DNA of 64,000 bases from Daphnia carinata (taxonomy: Eukaryota > Arthropoda > Branchiopoda > Diplostraca > Daphniidae), in NCBI RefSeq assembly GCF_022539665.2, contig NC_081335.1, forward strand, positions 7,006,001-7,070,000, written 5' to 3'. The translations under genes were made by a program, and so were the position numbers. This document shows, one piece after another, positions 2,991 to 35,600 of the stretch (the first letter of the stretch is position 1; each line of letters starts with the position of its first letter). The notes below the pieces were generated by a model. The model was not told where the DNA came from. It ran no database searches and was given only the letters and a program-made list of their open reading frames with translations.

Positions 2991-5900
2991 TTAAGCAGCA
3001 TTGAAGGCTTCGACGCGGCACAGCATCGTGACCGGGCGAATGTAGGTTTTGCCGAACTTCAGATGATAAGAAAATAAGTAATAAGATGATAAGGAATAAC
3101 TTCAGCGCTGATCGGGACATGTTTGAGGCGGCCACTGACACGAATAATTCCGCCACTGTCCTGGTAAACGGCAAGCTTCGGTAATCGGGATTCAAGATGG
3201 GTCGTTTTCCCCTTCTTCAGCCGATGTAAGCCTTCGGAAAAGGGAACGCGTTGCGAGATGCGGCTCAACAAGAGACGATCGGACTTAAATTCGTCCGGAC
3301 TTTGCTGCCGGCCCGTTTTCAGCTGCCCGATCGGTTTGGATGGAGGGTCTGCACGGCTGCCGTCTGGATTTATCTCTCGCTCGGCCTGTCTTCGATTAAC
3401 GAGGATACACCTGTTGGCGATAAATCTCCCAATCCAGGCGACAAAAATGTTGTAGCGGCGATGATTGGCGTGGATCCAGCGAAGTATTATCATTCCTTTA
3501 AGGCGGGCAGCGGCGTCGTCGATAAGTCGGACCTTGTTGGGCTTACTGGGATGCTGAACCGGGGGAAACGGGAGGTACCAAATCTTGGAATCGGGACCGG
3601 TGGAGATAACTTTTGTAGCGTGGCCGTTGCGGAAGACTTCCTGTATTTGTTCTAAGACTGCCTGGCGCAGATCGCTGTTCGAACGCAGTCTTCTCTCCGA
3701 AGCGAAAAACTTCCGTCGGGCAAACTCCTTGTTGTCCGGCAGCTTAGGGCAGTCGGGGCGAACGGGTAAACCGACTTCGTAACGAACTCCAGTATGGCGA
3801 GTGGTCGATTCCAGTTGGTCCATGGCGCAGTGGTCAAGCGCGGACATAAAGGTTTCGGGGTCCTCACGAACGGGCAGCGATTGGGTCCTTCTAAATCGCT
3901 CAACGGACTCCTCCAGCAGCTCGATCGAATCCAATTTGACGTAATTTACGCTCGCTGCTTCAGCAGCGGGCGCCGAAAAGGTTTTACCTACGATGCACCA
4001 ACCGAACGGGGTGCGAACTGCATTAGGTCCTTGGACTCCAGCTGGCGGGCGACGGACTTCGATATTCCGGTGGGCGTCCTGGACGTCCATGCCAATCAGG
4101 ACTTTAACTTCTGTGGCATCATGAGCGGGAAAAGCAAGGCCTTGGAGATACTCGAACGAAGCAGCCGCGTTTTCCATTCTTCGATGCCCAACGTTAAGAT
4201 GGGGTACCACGAAGGCGTCGGAAACCGGACAGCTTTCTTCTCCATCCAGCGATGAGACTGTAAAATCCACTAAACGAGTGTCGACGATTGGATCTTTCCC
4301 GTGGAAAGTCCCAAAACGAATTTTGCGCGGCCGGCCCGTTAGACCGAGTGCCTGAGCCGCGTCTTCACGCAATAAAGTAGCTTGGCTACCGGTGTCCAGT
4401 AGAGCGAAGACGTCGAGGGTTCTATCACCAGCACGAAGACGGACTGGAACAACGGCCAAACGGACGTTTGAAGCTGAACGGGTGGCAATGGCGAAAGTCT
4501 GCGGACCTGGAACGACGCTCGAATCTTCGTTCGGAGGTGGAAAACGGTGGTGTCCACTCCTCTCAGGGAAAACTCTTTCCGCACCATGCAGCAACGAGTG
4601 ATGGCGAGCACGGCATCCGGACGATTCACAGGCCGGCTTCGAACGACAGTCGGCACTTCGATGTTTTCCTCCGAGGCAGTTGAAACATACACCTTTTTCC
4701 TTCGCCAACAACGCTCGATCGTTCGGCGACTTCCGTCGAAATTCCGCACAGCTGCTTAAGCGATGAGCCTCACCGCAGCTCGGACACTCGATGTCAGTTT
4801 CTCTAGTTGCCTGGGTAGACAAAACGGTCGGAGATGGACGGACGGGTGGTGGCTTTGGAAATGAAAGCTTGGGAGAAGGGTATCTCTCGAGTTTAGGATG
4901 GTCAAAGTTGGCACGCTTTCCACGGATCTCGATCCTGGGCGCTAGTTCGACAGACGCAAAGGTGATCCTCTCTTCTTCGACAACCTCCTCCAGAAACCGA
5001 TCGAGATCGCCAAGATCTACAACTCTTGGCAAACGTTTTCGCACATAGCGGGCCCAGCGATGGCGAAAAAGAGGTGGCAGCTTTTGAACTGCTTGTTCTA
5101 AGTTGGCAGCACTCTTTAAATCATGCTTCAGCCCTCCCTGCTCCAATATTACGACTGCTCCATGTAGCTGATCGGAAAACAGCTCCAGCGCCTGACGATC
5201 ACCTGGTTTGACGATAGGGAGGCTCAAAAGATCGTGAATTTGGCAGCGGGCCATCTGCTCACTCGAACCGTAGTGTTTCTTCAGGTAGGAAAGAACAGCC
5301 GGGTAACCTCGAGGCGCTCTCAAAAGCGGAGAGATGCGGCGCAGAACATTAGGGCCTACCCACTCGGTTAGAATGGCTAAGCGCTGGGCGTCATTTGGAA
5401 TGACATCATGGACGAGAGCCTGGAAGCGCGAGGAAAAGAGAAGCCAGTCACGCGGATCTCCGTCGAAAGGGGTTTTACACATAAACGGAGCCGATCCTCC
5501 AAACATCCATGGAACAATGGTGTTTGCTGGTACAGCCGCTGGTTCCTTCTCCAGGTTATCGATCCAGCTGTCCACTTTTAGGACGGCCGACCGCGATTCA
5601 GGGACCTTCTTGGAGCGAGTCTTTAGCTTCGACGACGGCATAGGGCAAAATTCCTCGTCGGATTCGCTGAGGGAGCTCAAACAGATCGGCGAAGACGAAC
5701 GAATGGATCTTTTCGACAACTCCTCACTCATACGAAGCCGGGCAATTTCTTCCTCGATTTTTCGTTCCTGTCGTCTGGCTGAGACGAGCTCTTTCTCCTC
5801 CTGAAGTTTGCGAGCCAGCTCGCTGAGGCGTCGATCTTCGCCCTTCTCCTCTTCTCTCCTCTTCCGGATCAACTCGAGCTCGAGTTCGGCGGCACGCCGT

Positions 5901-21769: not shown

Positions 21770-22333
21770 ATCCATGAGTCAGTTTCAGTCTTTCATACGA
21801 CAAATTTGCCTCTTTTCTTTAGTTTATTCACTTTATGTTCTTTCTTTTCAGTTTTCTTTTTCTACATGCTGGCTTTTCTCTTTTTCTGTTGTTATTCTTT
21901 TCTCTTTTCCTTTTCTTCGATTCGTTCGGCGCAATTTATGTGACTTTCTGATTTGATCTCGTTCATTAATTGATTTGGCTAGCAATTCCACATAGTCTTT
22001 TACCTATTGCAATACAGAAAGGTTAAAAGTTTTGAAGATCTTACAAATATTTTTGTCAAATTGGAAGTTTACCTGAAAACCTTCAGCTATTTGCAGAGCA
22101 CCATTTCATGCCTGTTTCTCTTCAATGCTTCTTGCATTCTCAACTTCAGCTTGGCCTACTAAGATTTTCATCTTGGGTTTAAATTTTATTTTCTTTCATT
22201 TTAATCGTTGCCACTTTGGATCTAAAGTGGTCGTTTCCAGAATGGGTGAGGAATTAGAAAGTTCTCCAAAATCAAATTTGCTGGAAACTAGACAGCCTTC
22301 ACTGTTAAAAATTGTTGTTGGCAGTGTACTTGC
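21770..22333 (-). pseudogene. Charged-protein remnant in left arm of long-TIR element
   Basis: Minus-strand exon-like blocks encode VSSKFDFGELSNSSPILE and a Lys/Glu-rich tail. The same blocks occur at 31603-31870 (KIKLKRKLEGMKKKLKRKSK), 31890-32480, 48060-48780 and, inverted, at 34790-35600. The sequence is cut at 22333 by element B and resumes at 31603. The protein family is not recognised; it looks like a low-complexity basic nuclear protein. Confidence 0.5.
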
Positions 22334-22540
22334 CCCACATAGCACAATTCGGTCCCACGGACATCCGTGGTATATCCTAGTTGGATAACGGCGACATCTT
22401 ACGGACATCCGTGGAACTGCCTGACCTCCGAGTTGGATGTCCTTCGGATCTCGACTGAATATTGGAAGACCTCCCGAGAATATGCCGATTGATATCCGAG
22501 GGACGTCCTGCTGGGCGGGAAAAGGACATGCTCTGAACAT
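22334..22540 (+). repeat. Element B left TIR and subterminal repeats
   Basis: After the 13-bp TIR come repeated CGGACATCCGTGG-type boxes (two near-identical, plus TTGGATGTCCTTCGGAT and ATATCCGAGGGACGTCC). The same box family recurs inside the right end at 31445-31590. These are candidate transposase-binding sites. Confidence 0.75.
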
Positions 22541-22680
22541 GTGAGAATTATGTTAATACCTTTTTTTAAGCATTTCTGGCTACCGTAAAAAAATGAATAA
22601 TAAATAATATAACACAAATTATGGTGAGAAATTTCTTTGTATTCACATTTGCCACAACATACAACACGTAACTGTCAAGT

Positions 22681-24385
22681 TTAGAAGACAAATAAAAAAA
22701 CTGATCTTAAGTTAAACCCCCTAACATTATTATTTTTTTCCTTATCCTTACAATGGCGCAGCAAAGCTTGGACCACCTTGATGGCATCTTGCTCGGTAAT
22801 CATTGGTTGAGTCCTTTTCGCGGCCACTATAATTGAAAATATTACATACTATTAAAATTAATTACTTTAATTTTTTATACTTATAATGGATTTTCCGATA
22901 TTCGTAGCGGAGAGGCATTCATTTCCTCTCTGTCCAAACCAACTGAAGTGCTTCCCAACATCCTTTGTGAATAAGCGCCGTGTAATAAGCCGAACGATGG
23001 TTTTTGCGTCGTGACCACCAATCCCGATAAGATGAATGTTCTAAAAAATAAAATTGCCATAATTAAACGTATGTATTACTTATAATTATAAATAAACTTA
23101 CCAAGCATTTTTTAATACAGGGTTTGTTGAGTTCTTCGTTAAACTTCTTAAACTCCTCCATTGTGGTTAGAGGCAGCGTTTCCAAAAATTCTTCGTTTTG
23201 GTCAGTTTCGATATCCTTTTGTTTCAGAGCCGACTCTATATTGTTGAGTCGGTCTAGAACGGCCATTCCTACGGAGCTTTGGTCTCGCATTTCATGTGAA
23301 AGAGACACTATCCCGCGATGAACAAATTCATCGCGAGATTCTACATTACAAAAAAGTTGCTTTAAAGTAACGGACGGAATTAAAAATTTAAAAAACATAT
23401 ACCACCATGAGTTTTAGCAATTCGGTGCCGTCGGTTGTTGGCTCCGTTTCCAGTGGGCATCAATAAGGGGCTGTTTGAAGTTGTTGACATGTAATTTCCA
23501 GACGTGTTCGAAACGTCTGAAGAATTACCATTTCCCCTGCAGCCTACATAATAAACAACAAAACAAATATTGAAATCCCAAACAAAAACAGAATGTATAA
23601 GTTAGGATAGTTAATATTACCTTTATTATTTCTCAACTCTTTTTCCTGACTACTATAGAAATCCCTGTCATTATCATCAACTACGAAAGGTGTAAATTCG
23701 TGTAATGAGGATGCAGGTCGCCTAACTGGGGTGCCTTATTCAAAAATAAACAAAGTAAGTCTAATACTGAAGCGGAACTGGGGGGAAAACTGATTAAAAA
23801 GATTATTTGTTTTCTTATTTATGTGAATTTTATTTAATAATTACCTATAGAAGATGAAAGACAAAAAGAAGATGGAGGAGGAGGAGGTGGTGGGGACTCG
23901 TCTTCGGACTCATCACTCAATATTGGAACGGAAGTTCTTTTCAAGGGGGGTTTTGTTCGGGCTAAACTGCTGTTGTCAAAAATTTGTTTAGCTTTCCTGG
24001 CGCTCCTACTGCGCTTGTCCTTCTCCGAATCAGTAGTTATAATTTCTTCCATTTCTAAGGCCTTTTTCTCATTGCGCCGTGCTTCTTGATATGTATCTAA
24101 AGGACATGTTACGTTTAAAAATCAATAATAATTGAAAAAAAGGATCGCTATGTAATCTAGAACAGAATACCCATACCGAAGCCTTTTCTAACACGGGCAG
24201 GGTGCTTTTCCCATTTCTCCCTATCTGGTTCATACCCTAACTCAATGAACTTTGTTAAGTCTTTGCACTTTGGAGGCCACCAACAAACTTCGCCGTCAAA
24301 CCACGATATGGGCACCGTTGTAACCCATGGTTCTTCGGTGCCTTCCAAAATAAGGAACTTCCCCTACAAAAACAAACATTTGCAT
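22681..24385 (-). CDS. DUF4806-domain protein, seven exons
   Basis: ATG at 24385 (MQMFVFVGKFLILEGTEEP) opens exon 24385-24178. Exons 24096-23845, 23734-23621, 23543-23403, 23340-23102, 23040-22881 and 22826-22681 follow, each with AG/GT borders and consistent phase, to a TAA at 22683-22681. The N-terminus has the WFDGEVCWWPP and EKHPARVRKGFG pattern common to these proteins. A Ser/Pro linker follows (a run of eight Pro). The DUF4806 core includes TLPLTTMEEFKKFNEELNKP-like and GGHDAKTIVRLITRRLFTKD segments. All exons are open, so the gene looks intact. DUF4806 proteins often accompany this transposase class in arthropods; the molecular role is unknown. It lies 180 bp downstream of the transposase on the same strand. 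Confidence 0.8.
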
Positions 24386-24566
24386 TTTGGCTGAAAAAAA
24401 CTATACTACGATTCATATGTAAACCTATATTGTAACATTTAGAACATACGTTTGTAATCGAATACAAACTTAAGAATTAATCAAGTAAAAAAGAAAATCT
24501 CGCAAATGTACTAATGAAGAAAAAAAAATTGCGGAAACTGAAAGATGCCATGCTGAAGAAGCGAGA

Positions 24567-26678
24567 TTAAGCATGTTCTTCCATGGCAAGTGGAAAAACT
24601 GCAAAAGAATTCTCAATATCTATCCCATTGCCTTTAAAAGTCGGCAATCTTACTGCTTTAAATTTAATTTGATTCAAAGGCAATGCTTTTGACCTTGGGC
24701 AAGGATCTCCGACGATAAAAATGTTATATGAAGAAGAAGCTAAAGGATACGAAAACAAATCAATTTTACGGCGAAATTTTCTTCCCACAATGAAATCCCC
24801 TTCCTGGTTTCTTATTATATTGTCAATCAGGACGAGAGACAAATCTTTAAGAAAGACACAATTATCTGGTGCCTTGCAGCTAAGAAACCAGGGGCCTAAC
24901 CGCATTTCTTTGTATTCTACGGTTACTTTAAAATTATGTGGTACAGGGCCGCTATCGTGTTGTACTCGAAAACAACGGTGACGGAGATCGAATTCCAGTT
25001 TCTGGGGGGTTGAATTTACATTTACAATTTCAAGTAGGCGCTTTACTACTTGCTGTAAAGCTTGATTAGACTTACGCAAAAGTTTTTTTAATTTTTGAAG
25101 AAAATTTTCAAATGGATAGGCTGAAAAATTTGGTAACGATCCAAAGCGCAACACATCGTCGCACAGGTGTACCAAATTGTGAACATTAAAAGACAGAAAA
25201 TACGCCCCATAAACTTCTTTACATTCATTAACGAATAAATGTAGAAGTTGCCTAGCATATTCATTATGCAAAACGCACAGACTGTTTGAAGAAAGAATTC
25301 GCACGGCGACATGGAAAACAAGGAAGTTGTTGAAGGACCGAATTGGCAAAATACCAGCAAGGACAACAGGGCCGACATAACTGTTGAAAAGTCCGAATTC
25401 CGTGGCCTTCCATCTATCTATAAATTTTAAAGATCTGGCTTTTCTAGCGAATTCCCTAGGTATATATTCTCTTGTTGCTTCTAATCTATAGCTAATGGAT
25501 TCAAGCAAAATTCTAGACAGCCTAGTTTCCAATGGACCACGAATCCAAGTCAGAAGCAATTTCCGAGTTACACCTAAATCTATTAAATGCATCGGATCAT
25601 TCGGGAAATCAAAAACCATGTCAATCTCAATATTTTCTAAAATTGAATCACCATTGTGATGCTCCTCGTGAATGCGGTTGCGAAAAGAATAATTAGTTCG
25701 AAGATCCGAGTCATTTTCCAAAAAAACCACCCTTCCTTCATAATCGCCCTGTTGGATACACTTTGAACACCCAAAATACGCCGTGTGACTTTTAATATTT
25801 AATATGTATGAACGCGCAGGTGTGTCGCATATGAAAGATGACACGCGAAAGCTATGATGACGGTCCTTTAATGAAAATCCACTTTCCATAAGCGTTCCTG
25901 TTTCGGCAACAAAATCAGCAAGATACTCATTACAAAAAAGAGGCTTTGCGCTTCCATGGTAAAGACCAATTAAAAACACACGCCTGCATTTTACGTTATT
26001 AATCATTCCCAGAATAGGCCAAAATTGATCCCCACTACTTTTGGAAATAGGAAGCCCATCTATATTTACAAAAATTTCAACTGTTTCTGGAATGTGTCTT
26101 GCATTAACGCAAAGTAGAACCATTTCAATACCTTTTTGTATTCCAAAGTGGTAATAATTTCCTGGAGTAAGATTTTTTACCGGAACCTTACGAGGTGTCT
26201 TTATCAAAGTTCGGCAAGATTTCGGAAAGTTCATACCCCATGAAAACAAACGAAAAATTGCTAAAAGAGCATCAACTGCATTTTGATTAATTCCCCAGGT
26301 AACTGCCCATAAAGCAAATAATTCGCGAAAGTTGGGAACCCCTTCTTCCTCACTACTTTCTTCCACCTCGTCAGCGCTAGATATGCCTACAATCTCAATG
26401 TCATCATCACTGAAACCGTCTTCAGCGTCCGTCGATAACGGTGAACCGTCACTAAAAATTTCATTTACATTTAAATTTTCATCCCCTACGCAACTGACAA
26501 AATCTTCAGCTTCCTCTGTATCACCGCTATTATCGTTAAAGTCAACGACATCAGAAGAACTACTTGAATAGGCAGCATCAAAATCTGCATCATCATTAAG
26601 TTCCCGGATGTATTCCATATCTTCGCGTACTCTTTTCCTCTTATATCTAGCACTATATGGTCGATAACGGGAATTCAT
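24567..26678 (-). CDS. Element B DDE transposase, intact 703 codons
   Basis: A single uninterrupted frame starts at 26678 (MNSRYRPYSARYKRKR). Residues 30-120 are acidic and Ser-rich. The core has a first Asp in FVNIDGLPISKSSGDQFWPI, a second in SFICDTPARSYI with the CSKC pair, then FDFPNDPMHLIDLGVTRKLL, SLKFIDRWKATEFGLF and a likely Glu in SAYPFENFLQKLKKLLRK, preceded by YGAYFLSFNVHNLVHL. This layout matches a large group of arthropod and cnidarian transposase-domain proteins related to Tnp2/CMC enzymes. An intact frame with intact termini suggests recent or current activity. Start choice: the first ATG of the frame, just upstream of a conserved basic N-terminus. Confidence 0.8.
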   Translation of the reverse strand: MNSRYRPYSARYKRKRVREDMEYIRELNDDADFDAAYSSSSSDVVDFNDNSGDTEEAEDFVSCVGDENLNVNEIFSDGSPLSTDAEDGFSDDDIEIVGISSADEVEESSEEEGVPNFRELFALWAVTWGINQNAVDALLAIFRLFSWGMNFPKSCRTLIKTPRKVPVKNLTPGNYYHFGIQKGIEMVLLCVNARHIPETVEIFVNIDGLPISKSSGDQFWPILGMINNVKCRRVFLIGLYHGSAKPLFCNEYLADFVAETGTLMESGFSLKDRHHSFRVSSFICDTPARSYILNIKSHTAYFGCSKCIQQGDYEGRVVFLENDSDLRTNYSFRNRIHEEHHNGDSILENIEIDMVFDFPNDPMHLIDLGVTRKLLLTWIRGPLETRLSRILLESISYRLEATREYIPREFARKARSLKFIDRWKATEFGLFNSYVGPVVLAGILPIRSFNNFLVFHVAVRILSSNSLCVLHNEYARQLLHLFVNECKEVYGAYFLSFNVHNLVHLCDDVLRFGSLPNFSAYPFENFLQKLKKLLRKSNQALQQVVKRLLEIVNVNSTPQKLEFDLRHRCFRVQHDSGPVPHNFKVTVEYKEMRLGPWFLSCKAPDNCVFLKDLSLVLIDNIIRNQEGDFIVGRKFRRKIDLFSYPLASSSYNIFIVGDPCPRSKALPLNQIKFKAVRLPTFKGNGIDIENSFAVFPLAMEEHA

Positions 26679-26679
26679 T

Positions 26680-27600
26680 TTAATATAAAACGATTTTATA
26701 TTAAAATAATTCTAACAAAAGCTTGGTACTGAAGGAAAGCATCGATAATGTACGGAAGTATTAAAAATAACAAAAAGCCTAACTGTGAAAAGGCAAAGGA
26801 GACAAAAACAATAATCAATTGGAAAAAGAATAAGAAATAACCAAAGCGTAAAAGCGGCCTGACGAAGCCGTTTAAAGAATGGTTTGAAAAAATACCCCAA
26901 TCAACACCCACGAGAAAAGAAAAAAAAATTAATTTCGCATAAGCAGAAATCAATTGCCAAAAAGAGTTGTAAGGGAATAGCAATCTGAAGCGGATTGAAG
27001 AAAAATTAAAAGGCGCTTGGTAAAGCACCGTGAGAACACCCGCAAAAAAAGAGAAAAAAAAATGATTAACTGATCTTGCATAAGCAAAGATCAATTGCCA
27101 AAAAAGTAGTAATAAACAGCAAAGATTGAAGCCGTCGGAAAAAAAGGTTTCAAAAATGTAAAAACGAAAAGAAAAGGAAACAAAAAAATTTATCTAATCA
27201 CGCAAAAGCAAAATCATTTGCCAAAAGAGTGATAAAAAACGGAAAAGCATTTCAAGCGCCATAAGAAAAACTGTTAAAAACTTCGTTGTTAAAAGCGCCC
27301 TACCAGCACCAGCGAAAAAAAAAAAGAAATTTAAGTAAAGAATAAGGAGAAAAAATTAAGAAAGAACTAAAGCATTAGAACGGCCTGAGGAAACAATTTA
27401 AAAAATTGCCAGGCAAAGCCCCCTGCCAAAATCGACAAAGAAGAAAAAAAAAAGAAAAAATTTAATTAGTAAGACGTAAGTTAAGTCCAGTTGAAAAACC
27501 ATAAAAAGAATGAACAAAAGCATTAAGTTGTGTGAAGAAAGAAGGCAATTCATTGCATTTGAAAAAGTAGCATACATAATTTCCATATATAATTAAATAA
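26680..27600. other. A-rich non-coding interval upstream of transposase
   Basis: The region is a run of A-rich, loosely repeated segments (recurring ATCAATTGCCAAAA and GAAAAAAAAA blocks about 110-130 bp apart) with no supported gene. It should contain the transposase promoter on the minus strand, but no single core element can be picked out. Confidence 0.4.
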
Positions 27601-27619
27601 CTACCGCAATTATTTCTAA

Positions 27620-27850
27620 TCCTAGTCGGCCTATGTCCCGACTAAGATATTCATCTAACTGAAGGTCCACTGACCATGGCCAGACAATTGGTTTCACGAC
27701 GACACTGTGAAACCAATCCCGATACCTGTGCCCATTGAGGTGACAAGTCTCAATGCCCTTAAACTTATAGTAACAATGTCAGCACTCGGACCGTTGCCTA
27801 TCCGTCCCGAGCCTGATACACTGTGTCTGGGATCGGCCCAGCACTAGTAA
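27620..27850. other. Cluster of consecutive stem-loops inside element B
   Basis: At least three clear hairpins lie in a row. 27623-27629 pairs with 27638-27644 (TAGTCGG). 27687-27697 pairs with 27707-27717 (ATTGGTTTCAC, perfect 11 bp, 9-nt loop). 27733-27739 pairs with 27749-27755 (CATTGAG). Weaker pairs around 27785-27811 (CTCGGACCG) and 27827-27841 (CTGGG/CCCAG) may add two more. The density is unusual for this AT-rich region. Confidence 0.55.
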
Positions 27851-27904
27851 AATGAATAATTACTTACGGTTTGAGATTCCATATGAATAATCCAAAATGT
27901 GAAG

Positions 27905-28135
27905 GGGCCTCAGTAGGAACAGAGGCGGGCAGCTAGGCAGGAACAGCGCGGGCAGCTAGGCAGGAACAGCGCGGGCAGCTAGGCAGGAACAGCGCGGGCA
28001 GCTAGGCAGGAACAGCGCGGGCAGCTAGGCAGGAACAGCGCGGGCAGCTAGGCAGGAACAGCGCGGGACGCTGGGCAGGAACCAAACGGGCAGCCGGCCA
28101 GGAACAGGGGGGACCGCTGGACAGGTCCGACAGAA
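27905..28135. repeat. 23-bp GC-rich minisatellite
   Basis: The unit AGGAACAGCGCGGGCAGCTAGG(C) is repeated about nine times. The central five or six units are identical by eye and the outer ones diverge (AACGGGCAGCCGGCC, GGGGGGACCGCTGGAC). It lies between the stem-loop cluster and the captured gene block. Confidence 0.9.
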
Positions 28136-28634
28136 GCACTTACGCAGAGAAAACAATCGGGATCGACACTGTTAACACTAATTCGTAAGACGGCAGTAGC
28201 CCACAGTTAACAGAAGCACTAAATCAGTCGCTAACGAGAAAAGTTTCTAACGCGATGAAGTTCACTAAGTGTTACACAAAAAAATCCTGAAACAGCACAC
28301 GCACGGCACGAACAATAACCTTCACCATAAACAACTCAACAATGACTGGCTGAAATTCTGAATCCGCATGCGAAAATTTGGAAGTCGAAACTACCATTAT
28401 TTGCCATTTTAGTAGTCTTTCCCTAAACACTGGTGAATAGTTTCTTCTCAAAAATCCTTTTATAGAACAACTTCCTTTATTGAAACAGTTTTTTACACGG
28501 AGATAGTTTAAATATTACTGTAAGTTTGTAAAGTCTGTTTCAAATAATAATTGCGAATTACTTAAAAAAACAACAAAAAAAATATGGCAAACATTGGGTA
28601 ACCTGTCGATGCTAAACTTCGATTCAGTTGACGA

Positions 28635-29020
28635 ATGGCGAGTGTTAACGATACGTCTGCGCTAGTGAAACAGCAAAAGGATACCAGGCAAGTTAACATT
28701 TACAGTAGTTTATTTCGCTTAACGTAACATTTTTCTTATATTTAGATATCAGAGGTCGACAGTATATACTTAGAGATGAATGGGATTATTTACAACTGCT
28801 CCCTTCCAAATGATGAAGAAGTTCACTTCAGAATTGCCATTGAAAAAGTATTTTTAAACATTGTGCATTATTTGGAGGTAACGTTCCATTCAATATGCCT
28901 GTATTAATATCATTTAAAAATACCTTTTAAAGCTGTTTGGTTTAATTAGGGCCCAAAAGATATTTTGTATTCCTATTATTGATGTTGTGGCTCCCCGAGC
29001 CAAAATAATCCCAAAATGAA
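28635..29020 (+). pseudogene. XRN1-like 5'-3' exoribonuclease fragment
   Basis: Exon 28750-28879 encodes YLEMNGIIYNCSLPNDEEVH and FRIAIEKVFLNIVHYLE, which follow the N-terminal catalytic region of XRN1 (YLDMNGI, CSHPNDDDVHFRI, HYLE). The next block, 28930-29020, reads LFGLIRAQKIFC and VVAPRAKIIPK, corresponding to the following VLFRIIKP and GVAPRAKMNQQR region, with a TGA right after. 28635-28689 looks like a decayed preceding exon ending CAG|GCAAGT. Introns are kept, so capture was at DNA level. It is not functional: fewer than 100 of the large protein's residues remain and the Mg-binding set is incomplete. Confidence 0.8.
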
Positions 29021-29301
29021 GCAGAAATTTGCACTCCACACAATTGGTGAGTTCAACGAACAGTTTCATTAACATATACGTTTCAGTAAATACTTACTTG
29101 TTCTTTTTTAAGGTATCGATGGGATTCTTGGTGGTAAATGGTTACCTAATATTCCTCGTTTTCATCAAACAACTCAAACAATTCTTGGAACAACTCAAAC
29201 AACCACACGATCACTGTGTAAAACCGCTAATGACTGAGGTTGCTACAATTAATAAAAAATTTCTCTAGTTTTATCCTTTAAATTTTTAAAATATTCTACA
29301 G

Positions 29302-29490
29302 TTGCTGAAACGGATCCTGAATGGCAACAAGCAAGTTAAACAGGCAGCTTGTTCAGCTTTTTCCACTCTTGAGGAAGAAGCATGCACAGAATTAGTACCT
29401 TACTTGGGCTTTATTCTGGAAACGGTTGTCTACGCTTTTAGCAAATATCAGCATAAGAACTTACTGATTATTTACGGCGCTATCCGCTAT
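29302..29490 (+). pseudogene. Transportin-1-like exon fragment
   Basis: After an acceptor (CTACAG) the frame reads [40 protein letters not shown], then [20 protein letters not shown]. This is the HEAT-repeat segment of transportin/karyopherin beta-2 with most positions conserved. Similarity stops abruptly at about 29490 and unrelated sequence follows. Transportin normally carries PY-NLS cargo into the nucleus; this piece is one exon only. Confidence 0.85.
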
Positions 29491-29540
29491 CCGATTTCAG
29501 CTGGAAAAAGAAAGAAAAACGTTAAAAAAATGAATTTTTG

Positions 29541-30985
29541 GCCATGACCATGGACACCCCGACTTCTTTCGTTACAGAGGCCAGTAGCGTCAGCAACGAT
29601 TCGGCTTTTGTATCGCCGCTCAATACGCCGATATCGGTTAACCGATCGCGCCATAATTCAGCCTCTAATCTGCTGGTCAATCGAGTTCGTCACTGATCCG
29701 GAGCCTCAATTACAGTCCGTCACACGCCATATGCAACGCCTTCTCTGATGAATCACGGTCAAGATGGACTGTTTAATGCCTCTGTGCGCTCACGTCACAG
29801 TTCCTGTGGATCACCTTCATTGCCTCGATCCGCACCTCTGTCGCTTCTCGTTCAATCCTTCCCGCAACAGGTAAAAAAAACAAAACACGTTTATTCATAT
29901 ATGACGTCATACCTAAAATTGCTCCCCCACATATTAGACGGAACCAAGAGGAAGTGAGCGCATCTGCAAAGATTTGCGTCAACGCCATGTTTCGGCCAGC
30001 GTAGTTCTGGGTTTGAGTCCTCACCAAATATCCGCTTCCGGCCTAGTCCAGACCACGCTTAACAATGCTGTGCCACATCTATGGGGTAGCGACCCACTCG
30101 CCCAAGAGATCGAGGGTCTTCTAGATTCAGCTCCGAGCATTGTCAATGACTCGGTCATGAATCGCTCACAGTCTGTCCCGCCTCACCGCATGTTCCAGCA
30201 ATTCCAGTCTCAAGGTATCACCAGATATGAAACTGATCGCAACCCCACTGTAAGTCATGTCTCGTACGGTCGTATGGTAGTTGGACAAGGCTATGCGACC
30301 GCGTCGCAACCCAGCACGCCCTTCGCTTGCGGCAGCAGGAATTCCACGTACAACGCATCCGCCACCAGCAGCCCGTACAGCTACACGGCCACGCCCGTAC
30401 CCGCCGAATGGAACGATTTCAATTCGAATGCCAACAATGGTGAATTCAAATCAAAAGAGAATTGTATTTTTTTTTTACGTAACTGATCCTCTTGTACCCA
30501 AAGGCGATGCAGGAACGGAGGGCTTCGTTCAGCTCGATGCTGCCCAACAGGAGTTGGAAAACTTCCACGAGATCATTAGCGAAGTCTACGCCAACAATCA
30601 TCAGGAATTGGCTCCGTGCCTCGATGGATTGGGTGCGGAAGCCTTGCAAGATCCTTCTTCCGCCAATTTTTCCCAAATTAATTTTCAAGGATCTAATTCT
30701 GGTATGTTTATCTGACCTTCTTTGGATTGGAAGTGTTATTGTAATTAATTTATTTTGAATGCAGCCGTAACCAATATGGATTCCGATCTTTCGTTCAGTT
30801 GTTCGGACAATGGCGATGGCTACCCTTTGTCGGCGTTGAGCGATTCCGTGACACTACCGGGATTGTTGGATCCAGAAGATTTGGCCGCAACTCTGGTAGC
30901 TTTGAAAGAAGCTCCCGAATTGAATCGACTGGTCCAGGATGTGGCCGATGGGCAGCAGTCTGTCGCTTTACCACAAGGCATGTGA
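29541..30985 (+). pseudogene. RFX7-like transcription factor, C-terminal exons
   Basis: Exons 29541-29870, 29938-30439, 30504-30701 and 30765-30985 join in phase. They encode a Ser/Pro-rich tail with SNDSAFVSPLNTPIS, RSRHNSASN, RHTPYATPS, RSRHSSCGSPSLPRSAPLS, MNRSQSVPPHRM and a C-terminus DPEDLAATLVALKEAPELNR, ending at TGA. The motifs resemble the tail of RFX7 (SRHTPIGTPH, RSQSVPL, ATLEELKNDP), but the match is loose and from memory. One in-frame TGA at 29694-29696 (CGA to TGA type) interrupts the first exon. The DNA-binding domain is absent. An AATAAA lies near 31185, so the host 3' end may be included. It could also be another Ser-rich regulator. Confidence 0.5.
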
Positions 30986-31439
30986 ATCAACGCACCTATA
31001 CTGAAGATCCCCTAGTCCAGTCAGCCGCTCTCTCTCCTGCTCAACTCTTGATTTACTCTTTTTTTCATTCTCTATTTTTTTTAATGAGTTTAATCCATTG
31101 CATCCCAACGCATTGAAAAAAGAAACTAAAAAAAACAACTAATTCTTACAGTAGTAATACTAACTTAACAATTATTATTTTGTCAATAAATTAACAGGCT
31201 AGTATGCAGCAATCCGATCAAAAACAATGTGTTACGTAATGTGTTTAACATTTTATCATGTCATTTGCCGTGGTCTAATTTTTAATAAAAAAATTTTTTC
31301 TACGAGAGTTCAATTTTATAACGGACATTTTTATTACATTATATATTAAATCCTTTTCGAAAACGATTTAAAACATGGTTTAAATTTTTTTTAACAACGT
31401 TTATTTAGAAAAAAGAAAAAATATTTGAACTCCTATTTG

Positions 31440-31600
31440 CTGTTGTAGGGACGTCCTCAGGATTTTGTTTTGGCACCTCCACCGGGCTTCAAATTCTAAT
31501 AGCCGACGGACATCCATGGAACAACCCGATATGGCACAGGATATCTAACGGATGTTCGGATCCCAGTCGGACATCCGACGGCAGAGATGTGCTATGTGGG
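31440..31600 (-). repeat. Element B right TIR and subterminal repeats
   Basis: GACGTCCTCAGG, GACGGACATCCATGG, GGATATC, GGATGTTCGGATC and CGGACATCCGACGG boxes lead to the terminus GTGCTATGTGGG at 31600. Confidence 0.75.
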
Positions 31601-31602
31601 GC

Positions 31603-34482: not shown

Positions 34483-35600
34483 TTGAAACGAGTTTTCATA
34501 TTGAGCCTGAATAAAAGGTATGTGAAGGGTCAAAACCTAATTTTAAAAATTTTCATACATTGTGGTTTTCTTGTGCATCATATAACAAAAACTGAGAGCA
34601 TAAATTTGTTATTGGATTCTAGGGAAGAATGGATGACTGCTGTTGATTATGCTGCTGAACAGCTTCATACAGATCCTGATTGCAATGATTTGGATATGCC
34701 AGCCGTTTCTGAAAAAACACCAGAAACCATGCTTCCAATCCTTAAGAAATGGAAAAACAGCTAACAGCTAAGCTCTCGCTTTTCACAGGTATGCGTTAAT
34801 CTTTACACTTAAGTAAGACCTGCCAGTTTATTCCATTGATTTTCAGGAAAAAAGCTGGATTTATCTGATAAGAAAACAAAAATCAAACTAAACGGAAGTT
34901 AAATGAAATGAAGAAAAAATTATAAAGCAAAAAGAAGAAGAGGAGGTCCTGAATTGCCAAACTTGCATGAGCAACCAAGGTAGCATCTGTGTCACCAACC
35001 TCTGTTCTTTCAGAGTTTGTCTAAACAGAAATTTCTGAACCAAGACTAGCAAGTACATTGCCAACACCAATTTTCAACAGTGAAGGCTGCCCAGTTTTCA
35101 GCAAATTTGATTTTGGAGAACTATTTAATCCCTCACCCATTCTGAAAAAGACCACTTTAGATCCATAATTGGCAACGATTAAAATGAAAAAAAAAATACT
35201 TAAACAAAAAGTGAAAATCTTGGTAGGCCAAACTGAAGGTGAGAATCCAGAAGCATGGAAGAAAAACAGGCTTGCAATGGTGCTCTACACATAGCTGAAG
35301 GTTTTCAGGTAAACTATCAATTTGACAAACATATTTGTAAGGTGTTCAAAACTTCTAACGTTTCTGTATTGCAATAGGTAGAAGACTGTGTGGAATTCCT
35401 TGGCAAATAAATAAAGAAACGAGGTAAAATCAAATCAGAAAATAAAATAAATTGGGCTGATCGCAACGAAGAAAAGGAAAAGAGAAAGGAATGACAACAG
35501 AAAAAGAGAAAGGAATGACAACAGAAAAAGAGAAAAGCCAACATTAAGAAAAAGAAACTGAAAAAAAAGAACATACAGTGATTAAACCAAATCAAAAAAA
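34483..35600 (+). pseudogene. Charged-protein exons in right arm of long-TIR element
   Basis: A frame around 34576-34764 encodes EEWMTAVDYAAEQLHTDPDC and SEKTPETMLPILKKWKNS. An exon-like block from about 34849 (LDLSDKKTKIKL) then matches the complement of 31.6-31.8 kb. The uninterrupted target of element B is at 35040-35060. Stops break the later part. The first segment is not matched elsewhere in the window. No family recognised. Confidence 0.4.

Follow-up and report, generated by a model that had tools for sequence, protein, structure and literature searches.

The window analyzed here, a stretch of 64,000 nucleotides from the Daphnia carinata genome (C5:7006001-7070000 of a 108-Mb assembly), contains at positions 22334-31600 a transposon of 9,267 bp, which carries, between inverted ends, pieces of the host genes for XRN1, transportin-1, a CNNM metal transporter and an RFX-type factor. 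The element is very probably a recently mobile, apparently autonomous transposon of the CMC (EnSpm/CACTA-Mirage-Chapaev) type, whose family repeatedly copies host-gene pieces into one region, by its right end. In the following, contigs are indicated by "C" and extracted loci by "L". Genome searches scored the best candidates only (40 of 42, 63 of 141 and 40 of 81), and copy numbers are therefore lower bounds; matches beyond the extracted loci were placed by coordinates only.

Ends, transposase and recent movement

The 13-bp terminal inverted repeats (TIRs), CCCACATAGCACA, match exactly at 22334 on the plus strand and at 31588-31600 on the minus strand. Within the window alone the pair is weak: when two mismatches are permitted, at least two matches are found in 19 of 100 shuffles. 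The weight of the TIR evidence lies therefore on the genome-wide counts. Across the genome there are 72 exact copies of the 13-mer (34 on the plus strand, 38 on the minus), against 1 and 0 occurrences of the reversed control, which rules out a chance origin of the inverted ends; inward-facing pairs of exact TIRs, counted by eye, are 24, with a spacing of 1.9-13.6 kb.

An earlier note on this DNA, made from the letters of the window, had described matching 13-bp TIRs with a GC target duplication, and an empty target site in a paralogous arm, at 35040-35060. Both are recovered: GC lies outside both ends and, when the element flanks are fused with a single GC, they align without gaps at the join to the inverted arm 34782-35452 (86% overall), placing the pre-insertion GC at about 35049-35050. 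Identical 2-bp flanks are present in 12 of the 14 elements with both ends seen (TA, GC, GA, CC, AC, AG, TT), and a 1-bp offset is needed in the other two (L051, L052). Diverged (76-90%) copies of the flank sequence, both direct and inverted, are found at 21.8-22.3, 31.6-32.5, 34.8-35.6 and 48.2-48.8 kb of the window.

The transposase, reported as open by the earlier note, is indeed so, its 702 residues being encoded with no interruption (Table 1). In a protein search, 248 of the 7,997 candidates scored are relatives at E 1e-5; most names among the 120 listed are "uncharacterized", "hypothetical", "transposase domain-containing", "DUF4218" and "DUF4806", and the hosts include Daphnia magna, ants, fireflies, fish and others. 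When the window protein is aligned with 32 relatives picked from these 120, residues D206, D284, C303, C306, H499, H503 and E523 are invariant in all 33 sequences, and D206, D284 and E523 would be the catalytic ones. The invariant residues fit the definition of the CMC transposase as a DDE enzyme with C(2)C and H(3)H motifs, found in the available part of a published description (PMC12730594), where the CMCT clade is also reported to feature mostly 5'-CA..TG-3' termini and target duplications of 2-5 bp. In the window element the termini are CCCACA..TGTGGG, with CA/TG sitting a few bases inward. Compared with Pfam families, the window transposase matches only DUF4218, weakly (E 0.019), and nothing at E 0.01; among the 33 aligned proteins, DUF4218 is present in 19 and Transposase_21 in one.

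The second element gene had been described as an open DUF4806 gene: the likeness to DUF4806 stands, as the hand-spliced protein matches PF16064 (E 4.6e-4; 20.9 bits, the curated cut-off being 25), while the single open frame does not, several exons being recognized by eye. From its open transposase, the element is predicted to be a CMC-type cut-and-paste transposon, apparently autonomous.

The stretch 28.58-31.24 kb is matched wholly or almost wholly at nine places or more, counting the window itself (best 40 of 42 candidates scored). Both exact ends are present in five of them, so that the TIRs do not appear as unrelated ends; in three (C52, C6, C102:2520) one end is found in the stretch examined, and in C7:135866, which looks like a decayed copy, none is recognizable. 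Apart from this last one, the XRN1, transportin-1 and RFX block was not seen without TIRs among the matches listed. Complete copies, 9.19-9.27 kb long, are found in the window and at C7:1375793, C102:9877 and C63:21394, each of the latter three with its own 2-bp duplication. Against the window element, the C7 copy shows 1 substitution over 9,263 aligned bases, with 6 small indels; the C102 copy shows 2 over 9,262 bases, with 7 indels, and the C63 copy 26 over 9,194 bases, with 4 indels, one of which is 69 bases long. Because near-identical copies with their own duplications lie at other sites, the whole 9.27-kb unit has transposed recently, in agreement with the earlier claim that it moved as a single piece. 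A half copy on C52 features the same flank as the C63 copy, and the two are probably the same insertion. Another lineage, found at C19:21703-28100 and at places on C6, C7 and C102, has the RFX block without the transposase; C19-type elements and short relatives are alike without it.

Captured host-gene pieces and their order

Host genes were located for all the pieces in the window element. The XRN1 fragment, identified by a PDB match (1.2e-18), corresponds to a gene on C6, with 65% identity over 46 of its residues and 71% at the DNA level over about 360 bases. For transportin-1 (PDB match 1.9e-29) the gene lies on C9 (L046, C9:2142000-2151000), where it was recognized via its exons, and is 81% identical over about 300 bases. 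The RFX fragment is 89.8% identical over 1.6 kb, including introns, stop codon and part of the 3'UTR, to C3:12811085-12812667, in a gene that encodes an RFX DNA-binding domain (7.2e-20); besides the element copies, this host gene is the only match to the RFX part listed among the best 40 of 42 candidates scored. The CNNM gene is at C8:5224873-5225529 (90%). The earlier note's fragments of three host genes, XRN1, transportin-1 and RFX, are thus confirmed, all in plus orientation. Their number is not: the CNNM stub is also present in the window, and relatives hold CNNM, Ig-domain and pickel pieces. The factor called RFX7-like is of the RFX type, judging from the domain of the donor, and RFX5 is the better of two PDB matches.

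Introns are kept in the XRN1, transportin-1, RFX and CNNM pieces, which points to capture from DNA and rules out retro-capture via RNA. The tract 28060-28660 has no clear single donor among the best 40 of 81 candidates scored, several short matches being found on C7 and C3; a further host fragment, proposed at 28344-28567, was dropped, as the sequence is common to other backbones. Pfam searches with single fragment exons gave nothing useful.

The region is filled differently in other members of the family. Ig-domain pieces are present in the element C1:7590293, and beside transposase remnants at C4:391011, with donors at C3:10307709-10309612 and C3:10123624-10125528 (91-92%); a translated piece of 38 residues has matches in many Ig proteins, the best being DSCAM. 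A piece of pickel, a claudin-superfamily gene according to the names of its relatives, with donor at C6:1631975-1633300 (94%), is found in the 6.97-kb elements C1:8155899 and C7:811589 and in three 3.07-kb elements, as well as in C7:213015, at 92%; the two 6.97-kb elements had been taken as free of host pieces, a view withdrawn since both carry the pickel fragment. In the element at C9:1724027, an 801-bp filler (L056, C9:1724230-1725180) occupies the cargo region of another transposase-bearing lineage: all its long matches coincide with, or lie close to, further transposase copies or pairs of ends, and two short ones are on C106 and C92 (59 bases, 86-88%). One element family thus holds pieces of six located donors (XRN1, transportin-1, RFX, CNNM, the Ig-domain gene and pickel), all lying between the common backbone, near 28.6 kb, and the right end, which starts at about 31.37 kb. 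The genome list of exact 13-mers has none within 100 kb of these donor loci.

The order in which the window pieces arrived can be read from nested and cut borders across relatives. In L045 the transportin piece spans 1.9 kb, and in L044 it is uninterrupted across the critical place. In L042 a 0.7-kb CNNM piece, in reverse orientation, lies within transportin, between host positions 5181 and 5194; L039 features the same left border and CNNM piece, with no transportin afterwards, and its right end could not be located. The window element has the same left border as L042, followed by 39 bases of CNNM (97% to host) and then by RFX, and L036 shows, by sequence, the same arrangement; both are without transportin from host position 5189 to 5515. 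These borders indicate that XRN1 and transportin-1 are old, followed by CNNM and then by RFX; from the CNNM stub and the missing transportin, it follows that RFX replaced most of CNNM and some transportin.

A rival explanation is that the pieces lay side by side in the genome beforehand, and that flanking ends took them up together (end bypass). Ends and cargo do now travel together, as it would predict. The four donor genes of the window element, however, lie on four different contigs (C6, C9, C8, C3), the pieces are nested and cut into each other, and intermediate states are seen in relatives that have these ends. Moreover, no host locus with joined pieces and no element ends is found among the matches listed, except C7:135866. 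End bypass of neighbouring genes, rejected on the position of the donors, is accordingly given hardly any probability.

Repeated capture by the element family, the preferred reading, is accompanied by signs of exchange. In 200-bp bins, window and L036 differ by 0-4.5% in 28.8-31.6 kb, by 12-28% in 22.4-24.0 and 27.8-28.8 kb, and by 1.5-6% in 27.2-27.8 kb. Since the two are alike over the cargo and diverged over the backbone, cargo block and right end seem to have been exchanged between backbones.

At C4:231434-244222 (L043, L044), the XRN1 piece of a relative is split by about 8 kb. This insert was discarded as cargo: the 6.3 kb searched are a multicopy repeat, perhaps a retroelement, whose best copies are 97-99% alike (26 of 111 candidates scored).

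Table 1. Features of the window element and of its insertion site (window positions)
Feature	Position	Strand	Description
Left target-site duplication	22332..22333	n/a	GC
Left terminal inverted repeat	22334..22346	+	13 bp
Second element gene	22742..24364	-	several exons, by eye; DUF4806-like, below Pfam cut-off
Transposase	24570..26675	-	702 aa, CMC (EnSpm/CACTA-like), open; candidate DDE D206, D284, E523; C(2)C 303/306; H(3)H 499/503
Minisatellite	27915..28080	n/a	units of ~23 bp, within backbone; 69 bases shorter in copy C63
XRN1 fragment	28647..29010 (approx.)	+	with introns; 71% to host C6:8121482-8122304
Transportin-1, left piece	29200..29491	+	81% to host C9, L046 4887-5189
CNNM metal-transporter stub	29492..29530	-	39 bp; 97% to host L055 228-266, C8
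RFX5/7-type fragment	29533..31119	+	last four exon stretches, introns, stop codon, part of 3'UTR; 89.8% to C3:12811085-12812667
Transportin-1, middle piece	31140..31220	+	75% to L046 5515-5592
Transportin-1, intron piece	31230..31333	+	81% to L046 6299-6405; also in short relatives
Right backbone end	31373..31600	n/a	66%, common with pickel-bearing lineage
Right terminal inverted repeat	31588..31600	-	13 bp
Right target-site duplication	31601..31602	n/a	GC
Paralogous arm	34782..35452	-	bears empty site, GC ~35049-35050

Divergence, source and role of the fragments

The changes that window and L036 copies have in common, relative to the host RFX gene, are 54 synonymous, 19 nonsynonymous and 1 stop, though a transposon should drift neutrally. 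One explanation is that the fragments were captured in another Daphnia species, or in a diverged lineage, and that horizontal transfer or hybridisation then brought the element into D. carinata, patchy gene conversion following; this is regarded as possible, yet rather unlikely. In its favour, 8 of the 24 scored amino-acid differences between window RFX copy and host carry a residue that D. magna, D. pulex or both have and D. carinata lacks, the other 16 being element-only, and an extra Leu of the window copy is also present in D. magna and D. pulex, and absent from D. carinata. At five of the eight positions, however, the D. carinata host has the residue of the other outgroup.

The transportin pieces are similarly divided. 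Between host and L045, differences are found at 122 of 253 synonymous sites (.48), 67 of 875 nonsynonymous sites (.08) and 108 of 603 intron sites, to be compared with 38/204 (.19), 95/705 (.13) and 85/443, respectively, between L045 and L044, a contrast that fits a diverged source. Introns do not: in the four longest pieces they differ from the host by.18-.22, against.47-.55 for synonymous sites, a pattern not expected from a simple divergence of species. In host exons e2, e3, e5b, e5c and e6 (L046 compared with L045, L044 and L042), some half of the synonymous sites or more differ, and in the short introns about a fifth of the sites; e1, e4 and e5 feature no synonymous excess, save the short, poorly aligned e5 of L042. 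The absence of such an excess in the short transportin pieces of L051 and L052 (synonymous.27, nonsynonymous.16-.17) also argues against a diverged source, as does CNNM, where the difference from the host is concentrated in one exon, and introns are nearly identical.

In RFX, tracts of high and low divergence alternate. The host exon tract L037 6600-6693 segregates among nine element copies as two haplotypes, with differing tract ends in C63, C52, C19, C7b and C6, which suggests gene conversion, either between element copies or with the host gene. These patterns hint that a diverged source, followed by conversion, may account for most of the divergence, not including the conserved transportin introns. 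Somewhat more doubtful still is a joint reading, in which the recurrent capture region would stack, swap and pass fragments as a block between backbones, while the fragments derive from a diverged Daphnia lineage, host coding DNA being thus carried across a species boundary and then exchanged with resident genes.

The earlier note considered a chimeric plus-strand transcript possible; a translated fusion of the fragments is unlikely, because a stop in RFX exon A is common to all nine copies aligned and the XRN1 frame, followed by eye, hits an early stop; the open frame expected of a functional captured gene is thus not found. Between the two longest elements, L045 and L044, the transportin pieces appear to drift nearly neutrally; in other element pairs the corrected ratios are scattered, from 0 to 3.6, with small counts. 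Selection on the cargo, as a functional chimeric gene or a regulatory RNA, is improbable in the light of these data, even though five of the six donors are in one orientation, and RFX changes unique to the window copy, compared with L036, are 13 synonymous and 5 nonsynonymous. Those found in L036 only are 2 synonymous and 7 nonsynonymous, and 12 of the 18 window-only exon changes fall in one tract segregating between copies, as expected of recombination. Most likely, the fragments have no coding role and are passengers, which may act through RNA.

Capture model and comparison with known systems

The recurrent capture of host pieces could proceed through repair. A break or a stalled fork within the element would be repaired by copying a host gene as DNA, by template switching or gap filling, the product being sealed at short matches, such as the AATT that CNNM and RFX, inspected by eye, both have at the left RFX border. 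As the ends would survive the capture, the transposase could mobilise the altered element, and recombination between copies could move the cargo block onto other backbones.

Several observations weigh against this interpretation of the element and its family. The repair mechanism is read from the borders alone. The full transposase frame is present only in the window and C63 copies, its activity being predicted from the sequence, while the C7 and C102 copies share the deletion of a G in a G run (window position 25004), which breaks the frame: their transposase matches end at residue 559 and continue in a different frame. The second gene scores under the Pfam cut-off. Several copies lie on short contigs and are possibly duplicate haplotypes, as indicated by the common flank of C52 and C63. 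The CNNM stub is an A-rich 39-mer, whose E value of 6e-11 was computed against one 1.2-kb host sequence; L039 shows the left CNNM border only, and pickel and Ig donor loci were placed by DNA match alone.

For plants, there is ample documentation of gene capture by inverted-repeat transposons. In the Pack-CACTA elements of plants, gene fragments lie between inverted ends, and CACTA belongs to the same broad transposase clade as the CMC element described here. The Pack-MULE elements of plants also feature gene fragments between inverted ends (PMC8903248, available part); unlike Pack-TYPE elements, described in the same text as non-autonomous plant elements, the window copy encodes its own transposase. 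Host-gene DNA lies here between inverted ends, with a target duplication and a located parental gene, as in Pack-TIR and Pack-TYPE elements; non-autonomy does not apply, window and C63 copies having an open 702-aa transposase. Maize helitrons that capture stepwise, according to the available part of PMC3288121, are similar in having several gene fragments per element, stepwise gain and internal loss; those, however, are rolling-circle elements of a plant, while this is a DDE element of an animal, with inverted ends and target duplications.

Pack-type capture is already known from animals: the novelty here lies in cargo that is nested and replaced, in an animal element that is apparently autonomous. 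Among the records listed from the open-licence literature, judged by title and abstract start, none described a Daphnia case, nor several captures nested in an autonomous CMC element of an animal. Of the 370 Pack-TIRs that the available part of the animal survey (Tan et al. 2021, PMC8277862) describes from 100 genomes, four are multicopy, and one more family is known from fly populations; the median size of the captured DNA is 224 bp, and gap-filling and fork-switching models are discussed. Likenesses to those elements are host-gene DNA within TIR elements, multicopy cases with distinct target duplications, and the template switching or gap filling proposed there; differences are the apparently autonomous CMC nature, the multicopy state, nested captures of more than 2 kb and, probably, the six donors of the family.

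Whereas captures in that survey (PMC8277862), as far as its available part goes, are short and nearly all one-copy, one animal genome keeps here the intermediates: two donor genes, a third one inserted, the third replaced by a fourth, and relatives filled from other genes, with a final product that is young and apparently autonomous. Their presence in one genome makes the capture mechanism, gap filling versus fork switching, testable through the borders and through Daphnia clones and species. It also suggests that gene fragments can be acquired stepwise, stacked and exchanged by an animal transposon.

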